Of a stretch of 64,000 nt of DNA, positions 5,039 through 54,280 are shown one piece after another. The notes beneath the pieces are model-generated. The model was not told the origin of the DNA. It saw only the letters and a list, made by a program, of their open reading frames with translations, and did no database searches. Within the stretch, counting starts at the first letter, position 1. Each line of letters begins with the position of its first letter. Source of the stretch: Haloarcula regularis (GTDB taxonomy: Archaea > Halobacteriota > Halobacteria > Halobacteriales > Haloarculaceae); the NCBI RefSeq assembly GCF_029338315.1, contig NZ_CP119794.1:930001-994000 (forward strand), written 5' to 3'. A program made the position numbers and the translations under genes.

Positions 5039-5698
5039 TCACCGGTCTGCCGACGTGAGGACCGACGGGTCCGCGTCGTCGTCAGCGAGGGCCGCCCCCA
5101 GCCAGGCACTGTACCCGACAGACTGTGAGGCGTCGAGCGACAGCGGGAACGCCTCGTCGAACAGGGCGTCCCCAACCGCGCGCAGCGACGGCACCAGTTG
5201 CGTCGGCGGCCCCGTCGCCTCCAGCCCACAGGTCCAGGCGCTGGTGTCCCCCGCCTCGACAGCCGTCACTTCGGCGTGGGCGGTCACGCCGGCCTCGGAG
5301 AGACGCTCGGCGAGGACCGGGTGGTCGTCGTCGAGACGGACCAGCAGCCGGGTCTTCTCCACCGGGTGCCACAGCCCGCTCCGGTCGGCGTCCCACAGGG
5401 CCGGTGCCTCCGAAAGCGAGAACCGCCACTTGTACCACTGTTCGAGTCGGCCGGTGACAGCCGGCCCGAACGCATGCGACCCGAGTGCTGCCAGGCGCTG
5501 TTTTATCTCGAGCGCATGGGCGTCGCCGCCACGGAGTTTGACGTTGACCGCGGGTGCCGGCGGCGAGAGGTACAGGTCCGTTCGCGTCGCCGTCGTGACG
5601 TCACCCAGCCCGGTGACCCAATCGGTCAGAGAGGTCGGTGGCGGGCCGGCGTCGAACCATCGGACCTCGAGCGAGTTCGTCTCGGCTGGCGGCGCCAT
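5039..5698 (-). CDS. Unknown acidic protein, 219 residues
   Basis: The start is taken at the ATG at 5698 (MAPPAETNSLEVRWFDAG). The longer upstream extension lacks the coding bias. Features seen: alternating beta strands, VNVKLRGGDAHALEIKQR near residues 50-67 and WYKWRFSL near 89-96. These Lys/Arg/Glu-containing strands faintly recall a CYTH-type beta barrel, but I cannot confirm that. No signal peptide or membrane helix. It is convergent with the cox cluster and upstream-opposed to the kinase gene at 5921. Confidence 0.6.
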   Translation of the reverse strand: MAPPAETNSLEVRWFDAGPPPTSLTDWVTGLGDVTTATRTDLYLSPPAPAVNVKLRGGDAHALEIKQRLAALGSHAFGPAVTGRLEQWYKWRFSLSEAPALWDADRSGLWHPVEKTRLLVRLDDDHPVLAERLSEAGVTAHAEVTAVEAGDTSAWTCGLEATGPPTQLVPSLRAVGDALFDEAFPLSLDASQSVGYSAWLGAALADDDADPSVLTSADR

Positions 5699-13111: not shown

Positions 13112-15010
13112 TTAGTCACCCGCTGCGGGGAGGTACTTCATGTTGGTCGCGGCGAGGTCCTCGCCGTTGATGCTGGACTCGAACCCGTCGACGATTTCGG
13201 CGGGCTCGAAGGGGTTGCCGTTGTACTTGAGGAGGCTCGACATCTTGTCGCCGTACTTGCCGATCTCCTTCTGCGTGAGGCCGCGGAACTGCGCCGTGGC
13301 GTTCATCTCGACGACGAGCGCCTTGTCGACGGACTCGAGGAACTCGCTGACCTCCTTGACGGGGTAGGGCATCATGTCGGAGACGCCCAGGGCCTTCACC
13401 GAGTGGCCGGCTTCGTTGAGCCGGTCGACGGCCTCGAAGGCCGTGTCCTGCTGACTGCCCCAGACGAGGATACCGTAGTCGGCCTCCTCGGGCCCGTAGT
13501 AGGTCTGGTGGGCCGCGTTCTCGTCTAAGTCCGCGCGGATGTCGTCGAGCTTCTCGAGTCGACGGTTCATCTGGGCGATGCGGTTCGCGGGGTCCTCGCT
13601 GATGTGACCCTCCTCGTTGTGCTCGTTCCCCGTCGCGAGGAAGCGACCGTTCTTCTGGCCGGGGATGGAGCGCGGACTGACGTTCGAGCCGTCCTCGGGG
13701 TCGTGCAGGAACCGCTTGAACTTTCCGGAGGAGTGGTGCGCCGCCTCCTCGATCTCTTCCTCGGTGAGGACCGAGCCGGGGTCGGCGTTCGGCTCCTCGT
13801 CGAAGTGACTCGCCGGCAGGTTCCGGAGCTCGCCCTGGATCTTCTGGTCGTAGACGACGATGGCCGGAATCTGGTACTCGTAGGCGATGCGGAACGCCGA
13901 GCGCGTCTGCGTGTAACACTCGCGGATGTTTGCTGGGGCGAACACGACCCGTGCGGAGTCACCCTGTGACGTGTACAGGACGTGTTCGAGGTCGGCCTGC
14001 TCGGGCTTGGTCGGCATCCCGGTCGACGGCCCGGCACGCATCGCCTCGACCAGCACGACGGGCGTCTCGGTCATCTCCGCGAGGCCGAGCGGTTCGGACA
14101 TCAGCGCGAAGCCGCCGCCCGAGGATCCGGACATGGCCTTGACGCCGGCGTGAGAGGCCCCGAGTGCGAGCGCCGCGGCCGCGATCTCGTCCTCGACCTG
14201 CTCGGAGATGCCACCGAAGTTCGGCAGGTGCTGGGACATGATGGTGAAGACGTCGGTCCACGGAGTCATGGGGTACCCGGAGATGAACCGACACCCCTCG
14301 TCGAGGGCCCCGTAGGAGATGGCGTTGGAGCCCGAGAGGATGACCTGCTCCTCGTCGTGGGTGTTTTCGGGCACCTCGATGTCGTGGTCGACGTCGAGTT
14401 CGCTGGCCGCCTCGTAGGCGTCCTCGAGGACCGCGAGGTTCGCGTCCTGCATGTCCCCGCTCATGTTCTGCTCGATGAGTTTCTCGAACTCGTCGGTCTC
14501 GATGTCGAGGATGGCGGCCGTCGCACCGATACCGGCCGTGTTGCGCATGATCTCGCGGCCGTGTTCCTTGGCGATGCCCCGTAGGTCCATCGGGACGACC
14601 TCCCAGCCGTTCTCCTCGGCGGCCTCCTCGAGGCCGACCTCGTCGACGTCCGCGTCGTCGAGCAGCCCCTCGTCGTACAGCAGGACGCCGCCCTCGCGGA
14701 GTTCGTCGAAGTTCTCGTACAGCGGCTTGAGCTCTTCCTTGCCGTAGTAGGCTTCTTCCTGGGGGTTGCGCGCGAACGAGTCGCCCAGAGCCAGCAGGAA
14801 GTTGTAGCCGTCGCCGCGTGACTGTACCGGTTCGTCCTTGGCCCGTACCTCCACGTACGTGTGGCCACCCCGAATCCGCGACGGGTAGTGGCGATGTGTG
14901 AACACGTGAAGTCCCGAACGCATCAGGGCCTTCGCGAAGTTCTGACTCGTCGAGTCGATTCCGTCCCCGGAACCGCCCGCGATTCGCCAGATTAGCTCGT
15001 TGTCTGTCAT
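13112..15010 (-). CDS. porA: Pyruvate:ferredoxin oxidoreductase, alpha (gamma-alpha fusion) subunit
   Basis: A 632-residue protein starting MTDNELIWRIAGGSGDGIDS. The N-terminal third is the gamma domain (SRIRGGHTYVEV, LLALGDSFARN). The remainder is the alpha domain, with ISGYPMTPWTDVFTIM, GASHAGVKAMSGSSGGGFAL, EAMRAGPSTGMPTKPEQADL and the C-terminal YGILVWGSQQDTAFEA. The haloarchaeal enzyme lacks the ferredoxin-like delta subunit and passes electrons to a 2Fe-2S ferredoxin. The length matches my recollection of halobacterial PorA. It is the first gene of porAB. Upstream, 15011-15265 is a divergent promoter region with AT-rich patches near 15060-15110. Confidence 0.8.
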   Translation of the reverse strand: MTDNELIWRIAGGSGDGIDSTSQNFAKALMRSGLHVFTHRHYPSRIRGGHTYVEVRAKDEPVQSRGDGYNFLLALGDSFARNPQEEAYYGKEELKPLYENFDELREGGVLLYDEGLLDDADVDEVGLEEAAEENGWEVVPMDLRGIAKEHGREIMRNTAGIGATAAILDIETDEFEKLIEQNMSGDMQDANLAVLEDAYEAASELDVDHDIEVPENTHDEEQVILSGSNAISYGALDEGCRFISGYPMTPWTDVFTIMSQHLPNFGGISEQVEDEIAAAALALGASHAGVKAMSGSSGGGFALMSEPLGLAEMTETPVVLVEAMRAGPSTGMPTKPEQADLEHVLYTSQGDSARVVFAPANIRECYTQTRSAFRIAYEYQIPAIVVYDQKIQGELRNLPASHFDEEPNADPGSVLTEEEIEEAAHHSSGKFKRFLHDPEDGSNVSPRSIPGQKNGRFLATGNEHNEEGHISEDPANRIAQMNRRLEKLDDIRADLDENAAHQTYYGPEEADYGILVWGSQQDTAFEAVDRLNEAGHSVKALGVSDMMPYPVKEVSEFLESVDKALVVEMNATAQFRGLTQKEIGKYGDKMSSLLKYNGNPFEPAEIVDGFESSINGEDLAATNMKYLPAAGD

Positions 15011-31298: not shown

Positions 31299-31628
31299 AT
31301 GACATACGACGATGGACTCGCACACCGGATTCGCGAATCGCTCGGCGACCGGCCGGGACTGTCCGAGCAGGAGATGTTCGGCGGCATCGCGTTCATGACT
31401 CGTGGCAACATGGTCTGTGGCGTCATCGACGACGCCTTGCTCGCCCGTATCGGCCCGGAGACGTACGACGATGCCCTCGACGAACCGCACGTGCGGCCGA
31501 TGGATATCACCGGACGAGAGATGCGTGGCCTCGTCCTCGTCGACCCGCCGGGGCTCACCGCCGACGAGGCCTTCGAGACGTGGCTCGACCGCTGTCTCTC
31601 GTTCGCCGAGTCGCTGCCCGCGAAGTGA
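31299..31628 (+). CDS. TfoX N-terminal-domain protein
   Basis: A 109-residue protein (MTYDDGLAHRIRESL...). It contains QEMFGGIAFMTRGNMVCGV, the core of the TfoX/Sxy N-terminal domain, then a C-terminal helix (TADEAFETWLDRCLSFAESL). In gamma-proteobacteria TfoX co-activates competence genes, including pili. The archaeal stand-alone domain has no known function. It lies directly downstream of pilB3-pilC3, which is suggestive but unproven. Confidence 0.75.
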   Translation: MTYDDGLAHRIRESLGDRPGLSEQEMFGGIAFMTRGNMVCGVIDDALLARIGPETYDDALDEPHVRPMDITGREMRGLVLVDPPGLTADEAFETWLDRCLSFAESLPAK

Positions 31629-31711
31629 GTGGGGCCCGGCCACGGGGCGGCGGTAGCGCGGGCCCGGCACGACGTGGCGGCTTTTTCAGAGGGGGCGTTC
31701 AAACGTCGCAC

Positions 31712-31918
31712 GTGCCCCCCGAGAGAACCTGTCCCGACTGCGCGGAACCGCTCGAAGAGATGGAGTTCCAGGGGAGCGACGCACTGGGCTCGCTCGCTAT
31801 CGTCTCTCCGGCCTCGGACGACGGCTTCCTCAGCAGCCACCGGGCCGACGAGGTGCTGACGCCCGTGCCGTACGTCTGTCCCGAGTGCCGACGGACGCTG
31901 GTGTACGCGGAGGAATGA
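31712..31918 (+). CDS. Small zinc-ribbon protein, 68 residues
   Basis: GTG start at 31712 (MPPERTCPDCAEPLEEMEF). It has one CPDC and one CPEC knuckle near residues 7-10 and 54-57, so a single zinc ribbon. It belongs to the large set of haloarchaeal CPxC micro-proteins that bind nucleic acids or proteins. The role is unknown. It lies between the TfoX-like gene and the tRNA region. Confidence 0.6.
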   Translation: MPPERTCPDCAEPLEEMEFQGSDALGSLAIVSPASDDGFLSSHRADEVLTPVPYVCPECRRTLVYAEE

Positions 31919-32079
31919 ATAGACTCGCCGGAATCGAGCGACCGCGAAACGAATGCAACGTCGGCGACGAGATGAGTCGAGCGAAGCGAGACGAGTGGAC
32001 TCGCCGGGATTGAGCAGAATTTCGATTCTGCGATGTTTGGCGAGTCCACGGCTGAGGGAGCGAACGCGACTGAAGAAAG
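31919..32079. repeat. Two degenerate copies of the tRNA-Ala 3' end
   Basis: On the minus strand, downstream of tRNA-Ala, CCCGGCGAGTCCA-like sequence recurs twice, at about 31997-32012 (AATCCCGGCGAGTCCAC) and about 31921-31935 (ATTCCGGCGAGTCT), besides the genuine tRNA end at 32080-32096. A third GGCGAGTCCAC lies in the opposite orientation at about 32039-32049. Repeated tRNA 3' ends are the usual scar of integrase-mediated insertion and excision, or of local tRNA duplication. Confidence 0.6.
31974..32009 (+). repeat. 36-bp dispersed repeat, copy A
   Basis: GAGTCGAGCGAAGCGAGACG followed by AGTGGACTCGCCGGGA. A copy with two mismatches lies inverted at 54154-54189. It joins a GAGCGAAGCGAG palindrome-like block to a tRNA-Ala 3' end. 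Confidence 0.7.
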
Positions 32080-32151
32080 TGGACTCGCCGGGATTTGAAC
32101 CCGGGGCCTCTCCCATGCCAAGGGAGTGATCTACCCCTGATCTACGAGCCC
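32080..32151 (-). tRNA. tRNA-Ala (anticodon GGC)
   Basis: A cloverleaf can be drawn on the minus strand: acceptor GGGCTCG with CGAGTCC, including the G3-U70 pair that identifies tRNA-Ala; D arm TAGATCAGGGGTAGATC; anticodon stem CTCCC/GGGAG with loop TTGGCAT giving anticodon GGC (codon GCC); T arm CCGGGTTCAAATCCCGG. Discriminator A at 32080. CCA is not fully encoded. No intron. It lies between the zinc-ribbon gene and the pilin-like genes, which are on the other strand. Confidence 0.95.
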
Positions 32152-32180
32152 TCACGGCATTCACCAGTATCCGGTGGCCT

Positions 32181-32190
32181 TTCTTAAAGG
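32181..32190 (-). promoter_or_regulatory. TATA box of tRNA-Ala
   Basis: CCTTTAAGAA on the minus strand lies 30-39 nt before the tRNA 5' end at 32151. Confidence 0.45.
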
Positions 32191-32319
32191 CATCGAACCA
32201 CAGGGGAGGTGTGAGACGGTCCCGTACGACACAATTGATAATTGCGGCACAATGGCTAAGAGCATCCAGTACGAGCATCGGTCAGACGCAGTTACCAGGG
32301 TCATATCGGGTCAAGTATT

Positions 32320-32940
32320 ATGGATGTGCAACGGGACGGGAATCGCGAGGCACGTGGCCAGCGGGGACAGGCAGCGACAGAGCGCGGGCAGACGACGCTC
32401 GATTTCGCCATCGGTATGAGCCTCTTCCTCGCGGTCCTCATCTTCATTTTCCTGTTCGTTCCAGGGCTGCTGGCACCGTTTACGGCCGGCGGGCAGGAGG
32501 AGACGGTGTCGTCGAATCGGGTCGCAGACTACCTGGCGAAAGGGGCGCTCGGGACGCCGCGGGACCCGTTCGTCCTGGACACGCAGTGTACGATTCTCTT
32601 CTTCGATAACCAGACGGCCGCGGACAAGTGCGGTGGCGACTGGAGCGGCGACATGCCGGTCGAGGAGACGATGGGTCTCGACCCGGCGCGCCAGAACCTG
32701 AACGTCACCATCCGGGGGACGGCACCGAACAGCGGCGAGGAGGAGATTCTGTGCTGGGACGAGGACGACAACGTGCTCGTCGGCATCTCGCACGGGACGT
32801 GTGGCACCACCCCCGGCGATCCCGACGTCCCGTTCACGAGAGGCGACACGCCTCCGGACGCGAACGACGCGACGGTGACCGCCCTCCGCGTGGCCTCGCT
32901 GAAAGGGACGGACGTCACTGTCTACGTGGAGATGTGGTAG
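32320..32940 (+). CDS. Pilin-like protein 1 (DUF7287-like)
   Basis: A 206-residue protein with a type IV prepilin-like N-terminus: an R-G cleavage context (ERGQTTLDFAIGMSLF) followed by the hydrophobic helix AVLIFIFLFVPGLLAPF. The extracellular part holds four cysteines (QCTIL, KCGGD, ILCWD, GTCGT) that could form disulfides. Predicted processing by the archaeal prepilin peptidase PibD; secreted or pilus-associated. First of five small same-strand pilin-like genes. DUF assignment is from memory. The start is uncertain, because a downstream start nearer RGQTT is possible. Confidence 0.75.
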   Translation: MDVQRDGNREARGQRGQAATERGQTTLDFAIGMSLFLAVLIFIFLFVPGLLAPFTAGGQEETVSSNRVADYLAKGALGTPRDPFVLDTQCTILFFDNQTAADKCGGDWSGDMPVEETMGLDPARQNLNVTIRGTAPNSGEEEILCWDEDDNVLVGISHGTCGTTPGDPDVPFTRGDTPPDANDATVTALRVASLKGTDVTVYVEMW

Positions 32941-54153: not shown

Positions 54154-54189
54154 TCCCGGCGAGTCCATTCGTCTCGCTGCGCTCGACTC
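54154..54189 (-). repeat. 36-bp dispersed repeat, copy B, tRNA-3'-end-like
   Basis: On the minus strand GAGTCGAGCGCAGCGAGACG then AATGGACTCGCCGGGA, differing from 31974-32009 at two positions. Read on the plus strand it resembles a tRNA-Ala 3' end (TCCCGGCGAGTCCA). It lies in the HEAT/purE promoter region. Confidence 0.7.
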
Positions 54190-54280
54190 ACTCCCTCGCC
54201 GAACAGCGCGACCGATCCGCGGTCGCTCAACCCCATCGGAGAGAGATACCCTTACGTGTCCGCCCGGCCGACGGCCTCGT

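Follow-up and report, generated by a model that had tools for sequence, protein, structure and literature searches.

Folded units ending in a copy of the adjacent tRNA 3' end behind haloarchaeal tRNA genes resemble RtT repeats

RtT repeats are, to our knowledge, known from tRNA operons of Escherichia coli, with an origin that is unsettled and little understood. Strings of short units also occur in integrons, whose attC sites fold as inverted repeats around a variable centre. The tRNA operons of E. coli have been reported to release RtT RNA (PMC4986893). According to a review (PMC8371274), most archaeal chromosomes encode the tyrosine recombinase XerA, and the binding of PaXerA to att-site stem-loop structures is of lower affinity.

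Here we analyzed a 64,000-nt stretch of haloarchaeal DNA (hereafter the window; genome G000, C1:930001-994000), in which an alanine tRNA gene is followed by two short units ending in copies of its 3' end, and compared it with related genomes and with the E. coli loci. The units behind tRNA-Ala(GGC) are one case of a wider feature and not a local scar. We recognized no description of these haloarchaeal units in the literature covered (titles and beginnings of abstracts, with subscription journals mostly outside the search). They would constitute a second, much larger RtT-like set. Every unit in it matches the tRNA that it follows, and both filled and empty sites exist among related genomes, so that what spreads and maintains tRNA-end repeats is now testable by strain sequencing and by genetics in laboratory Haloferax.

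The tRNA-Ala loci of the window genome

The tRNA-Ala(GGC) gene was located by ARAGORN (32079-32151) and by Rfam model RF00005 (32080-32151, 65.6 bits). The features of the locus are as follows.

32080..32151, minus strand: intact tRNA-Ala(GGC)
31996..32079, minus strand: unit 1, 84 nt, terminating with a copy of the tRNA 3' end; units are also present in relatives
32039..32049, minus strand: inverted arm of unit 1, complementary to the copied end and forming an 11-bp stem with 31995-32005
32014..32031, minus strand: inner hairpin of unit 1, with a 7-bp stem and a 4-nt loop
31996..32010, minus strand: direct copy of the tRNA-Ala 3' end in unit 1, identical at 15 of 15 positions
31920..31995, minus strand: unit 2, 76 nt, terminating with a copy identical at 13 of 15 positions (31920-31934); missing in G017, a genome of the same genus

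A sequence-only reading of this DNA had described two degenerate copies of the tRNA end and an inverted block. The repeats are real and are copies of the tRNA-Ala(GGC) 3' end, but the word degenerate applies only to the one at 31920-31934, with its two mismatches in 15, as the 15-nt copy at 31996-32010 (ATCCCGGCGAGTCCA) is exact. The inverted block (GGCGAGTCCAC) is present where it had been seen, and its 11-bp stem with the copy is perfect. In relatives, the inner hairpin of unit 1 differs in sequence and keeps its pairing, and shuffled versions of the 166-nt stretch rarely fold as well as the stretch itself (z -2.46; three of 200 shuffles were equally good). Compared with most other units described below, that of the tRNA-Ala(GGC) locus is a variant, with an inverted arm complementary to the acceptor part. 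The 10-mer GGCGAGTCCA, allowing at most one mismatch, has 16 matches in the window against a shuffle mean of 11.2, a count reached by 15 of 100 shuffles; it is thus not enriched across the window, and such a short block is by itself no proof. Elsewhere in the window, positions 1695-2018 hold a run of a 12-nt periodic repeat, with 19 overlapping 108-nt copies in register.

The same reading had taken the repeats for the att-like duplication of an integrative element since lost, or for local tRNA decay. It was right that the tRNA 3' end is copied at a position used by integrative elements for insertion and that no integrase is visible: none of the ten neighbor proteins (26.7-37.5 kb), which comprise pilus-type and DUF families, one TfoX_N protein, and one unmatched protein, has an integrase domain. 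The lost island at tRNA-Ala(GGC) is not supported, since the copies belong to compact folded units that stand behind about two fifths to half of tRNAs and that relatives also have; moreover, the 84- and 76-nt spacing leaves no space for genes. Decay is not supported either, the tRNA gene being intact and set among pilus-type genes. As for repeats conserved in all relatives with no mobile element, which that reading had offered as grounds against itself, relatives do carry units, but patchily: a copy matching at 12 or more of 15 positions lies inside 400 nt at nine of 29 related tRNA-Ala(GGC) loci, one of which (L040) is truncated by a contig end. In one relative (G055, locus L032), the tRNA-Ala end reads CAAGTCC, and the same change is present in its unit.

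Arrays of another scale are found at a second tRNA-Ala gene of the window genome (2809629-2809700), behind which ATCCCGGCGAGTCCA recurs at 2810628, 2811465, and 2822425, with spacings of 938, 837, and about 10,960 bp (L334, G000:C1:2809400-2823000). Judged by their sequence, these copies look like an integrative-element array; the ORFs between them include ParE-like and DUF5615 (PIN-like) genes, and a Pfam search of 10 of the 30 listed ORFs behind this tRNA revealed no integrase. Together with tRNA-Ala cores lying 7-15 kb apart in three relatives (G001, G010, and G022), this repetition of the core lends something to the idea that the short units, too, are att-site scars of lost kilobase-scale integrative elements. 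We consider that idea highly improbable, given the small uniform size and internal plan of the units at many tRNAs and the ten integrase-free neighbors of tRNA-Ala(GGC). A haloarchaeal copy of a tRNA 3' end is weak evidence of a lost genomic island.

Occurrence and anatomy of the units

For each tRNA, we searched for its last 18 nt with up to three mismatches within 200 nt downstream and, as a control, searched the same downstream stretches for the ends of other tRNAs that were at least six mismatches away. Own-end copies were found at 22 of 44 tRNAs in the window genome (swapped control 3/1580), at 18 of 44 in G017 (1/1582), and at 19 of 44 in G046, which belongs to another family (3/1570), with none upstream of the 44 tRNAs in any of the three. 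Among the 30 best-scoring of 43 tRNAs of G022, a further genome of the same genus, 10 had such a copy (control 0/710), and among the 30 best of 44 tRNAs of G341, from the same phylum outside Halobacteria, none did (control 4/748). Chance or ordinary spacer sequence as the source of the copies is ruled out by the swapped-tRNA and upstream controls.

We excised 81 units from the window genome, G017, and G046, arranged in tandems of up to three; among the 60 first units the median length is 121 nt, with a range of 72-215 nt. Most follow one plan, in which a lead hairpin is followed by a GGATTYGAA arm, an inner hairpin, and the copy of the own tRNA end. GGATTYGAA is the complement of the tRNA T-loop and is frequently extended; this inverted T-loop is found with at most one mismatch of nine in 61 of the 81 units, and the first two bases extending the arm match the own tRNA at frequencies of 0.64 and 0.59, compared with 0.34 and 0.26 for other tRNAs. 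The copied block has sharp limits: identity specific to the own tRNA extends from the discriminator back to about position 57 and drops to background past 22 nt. The inner hairpins are of few recurrent types, common to different tRNAs. A lead-loop motif occurs in 29 of the 81 units, and a perfect 5-bp stem of varied sequence accompanies it in 16 of these 29, compared with 0 of 47 control motifs.

Stems that stay paired despite varied sequence are what would be expected if the units were kept mainly for their trailer RNA, whether as an RtT-like small RNA or as a processing or termination signal, with selection maintaining the match to the tRNA. The unit of G055 that tracks the change in its tRNA end, the vertically kept body of 13 of 19 comparable units (see below), and the reported release of RtT RNA from tRNA operons (PMC4986893) point the same way. 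Nevertheless, half or more of the tRNAs lack units and orthologs differ, and we regard this explanation as decidedly unlikely. In a strand-specific comparison for RNA-level selection, G.T mismatches numbered 17 vs 12 A.C mismatches, a difference that gives no signal.

The units spread across the class. The pattern GGATTYGAAN{28,58}TTCRAATCC is present in 274 of 292 Halobacteria genomes, with none for the reversed control pattern among the matches listed from Halobacteria genomes. Across the phylum, a stricter pattern was found in 66 of 392 genomes, namely in 65 of 81 Halobacteria and in one of 311 others, and every distinct place listed for it in the window genome (5) and G046 (7) is 3' of a tRNA, no more than 300 nt away. 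Patterns built on the inverted T-loop overlook units, as G022 has no match to the first pattern yet carries its 10 own-end copies in 30 tRNAs. The exact tRNA-Ala tandem was retrieved from 38 records, of which 36 are haloarchaeal by title (Haloferax, Halosimplex, Natrinema, Haladaptatus, and others), the two remaining being archaeon BMS3Abin16 and one archaeal MAG. In BMS3Abin16, not a haloarchaeon by title, a 96-nt unit bearing an inverted T-loop arm stands behind a tRNA-Ala (L338, about 5208-5380). No tRNA was found in the examined stretch beside the units of L371 (8.0 kb, Halosimplex pelagicum), L409, and L411 (3.1 kb each).

A plasmid or phage source was also considered and rejected, as the matches listed (20 of 36 plasmid and 5 of 5 phage records) covered the tRNA part of the query and nothing beyond it. 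A scan of viral contigs (IMG/VR) returned at least 120 stretches, 62 of them with a length of 47 or 49; by eye, the 47- and 49-nt stretches listed (at most six per length) read as phage tRNA genes, and most of the other listed ones look like chance. One IMG/VR contig, possibly a provirus with host flank, has a tRNA-Glu followed by an own-matched unit (L218, about 13744-13920). As a separate observation, the Rfam L4-Archaeoglobi ribosomal protein leader matches a haloarchaeon at 2206-2305 of L066 with 77.7 bits (gathering score 34.5).

Turnover of the units and a unit away from a tRNA

At tRNAs with units in both the window genome and G017, 13 of 19 unit bodies of the former are more similar to their counterparts than the 95th percentile (0.71) of 621 unit-body comparisons between different tRNAs. 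Eight units in the window genome and three in G017 stand at tRNAs without a unit at threshold in the other genome; among these unpartnered units, G017 lacks a closely matching tRNA for L081, and the counterpart of L078 carries a weaker copy (four mismatches). Clean filled and empty sites were seen in 5 of 11 pairs chosen for differing, with gain and loss unpolarized by an outgroup: the filled sites are Val (+119) and Arg (+119) in G017, and Pro (+145), Ser (+149), and unit 2 of Ala (+76) in the window genome. One other pair has an extra tandem unit (Leu), and 5 of the 11 show internal deletions or are not cleanly alignable. In three of six pairs, the extra unit adjoins the tRNA (L069/L113, L075/L119, and L089/L163); of the remaining three, L092/L166 is ambiguous, L080/L125 has a swapped unit order, and at tRNA-Ala(GGC) the extra unit is distal. 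These mixed positions do not establish that the arrays grow from the side of the tRNA. The swapped order between the two genomes is at tRNA-Ser.

Differences of this kind might arise if the units were immobile and their copy number were altered only by slippage or repeat-mediated deletion between direct repeats, aided by the hairpins. Clean empty sites can indeed be losses, tandems of identical or near-identical units exist (2 × 75 nt in Salinibaculum KK48 and 2 × 94 nt in Halospeciosus), and precise deletions between short direct repeats have been reported in Haloquadratum (PMC3119063). Slippage alone, however, explains neither the swapped order at tRNA-Ser nor the inner-hairpin types common to different tRNAs, and immobility by itself leaves the single split core away from a tRNA, described next, unexplained. 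We hold immobile units to be somewhat unlikely.

The window contains one further unit, an inverted copy absent from the list of the sequence-only reading.

54155..54234, plus strand: related intergenic unit, upstream of a purE-like gene, with one tRNA-Ala core split at its ends

This unit is inverted in orientation and is present at the same place in G017; the gene downstream of it is one that we take to be purE-like. Of the 23 same-genus loci (L378-L400), 13 were aligned: the window genome and G017 have the unit, seven keep both flanks without it, and four have other upstream sequence. Apart from point changes, its left end starts inside the tRNA-Ala core in both species (CGGCGAGTCCA), and its right end halts inside the core (CTCAACCCC in the window genome, CTCAATCCCG in G017). 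Because both ends lie inside the core, the unit has one core, split near CCCG, which is as would be expected from the insertion of an excised single-core form; this is a single event. A search of 391 genomes for further split-core insertions gave seven matches, none of them split: six are a point variant whose core reads CCCGACGAG, and one is interrupted by N.

Taken together, unit-wise differences at a fixed core, swapped order, inner hairpins shared between tRNAs, and the single-core insertion favor recombination in the tRNA 3' core, and we give an even chance to the reading that haloarchaea have RtT-like tRNA-end units which come and go by that route. On this reading, they would be non-coding elements of about 70-215 nt, single or tandem, directly behind tRNA genes, whose gain, loss, and re-ordering would proceed via recombination within a tRNA 3' core of roughly 17-22 nt. 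The first-candidate catalyst would be a tyrosine recombinase that works on the folded unit, whether XerA of the host or a resident integrase, and replication slippage over direct repeats may add duplications and losses. By analogy with what has been reported for E. coli RtT RNA, the units may be part of the pre-tRNA transcript, as trailers that 3' processing releases. A bolder version, which we judge improbable, would make them class-wide tiny mobile tRNA-end cassettes, with the tRNA as docking site and the folded unit as recombination site, moved in single-stranded form by a XerA-like recombinase or resident integrase; E. coli RtT would then be an independent or ancient instance.

Comparison with RtT repeats, att sites, and integrons

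In E. coli K-12, three units with a 178-nt period follow tyrV; they carry an inverted arm and terminate in the tRNA-Tyr 3' end. Behind proK stands an RtT unit terminating in its own 3' end. At argQ, argZ, and argV, own-matched copies lie at 133-135 nt with a similar inner hairpin and without an RtT match at gathering. With tyrT, own-matched units thus stand at 6 of 15 chosen E. coli tRNAs, compared with 18-22 of 44 tRNAs in three haloarchaea; the matches at argY, leuP, and leuQ are neighboring tRNA genes and not units.

The haloarchaeal units share with RtT (RF00391, rttR) the position directly 3' of a tRNA and the end in that tRNA's 3' end. An inverted arm pairs with the copied end, as it does in the Rfam consensus structure, where this pairing is the outer stem, and both sets have tandem copies and inner hairpins common to different tRNAs. 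In contrast to the haloarchaeal units, the copy in the E. coli RtT loci that were read includes the encoded CCA. The RF00391 model matches E. coli loci with 101-137 bits and gave no match at E<=1 in window positions 31600-32500 or at 20 tRNA loci. As the plan is common but the model is unmatched, the haloarchaeal units appear to work like RtT without being members of it.

With the att sites of archaeal tyrosine integrases, the haloarchaeal units share the same place, a similar core, and the duplicated tRNA 3' end; they differ in being gene-free, about 70-215 nt long, and equipped with an inverted arm and hairpins, with no linked integrase. Like integron attC sites, they fold as inverted repeats around a variable centre and are arranged as short units in strings; unlike integrons, they come without integron integrase or cargo genes, and their core is the end of a host tRNA.
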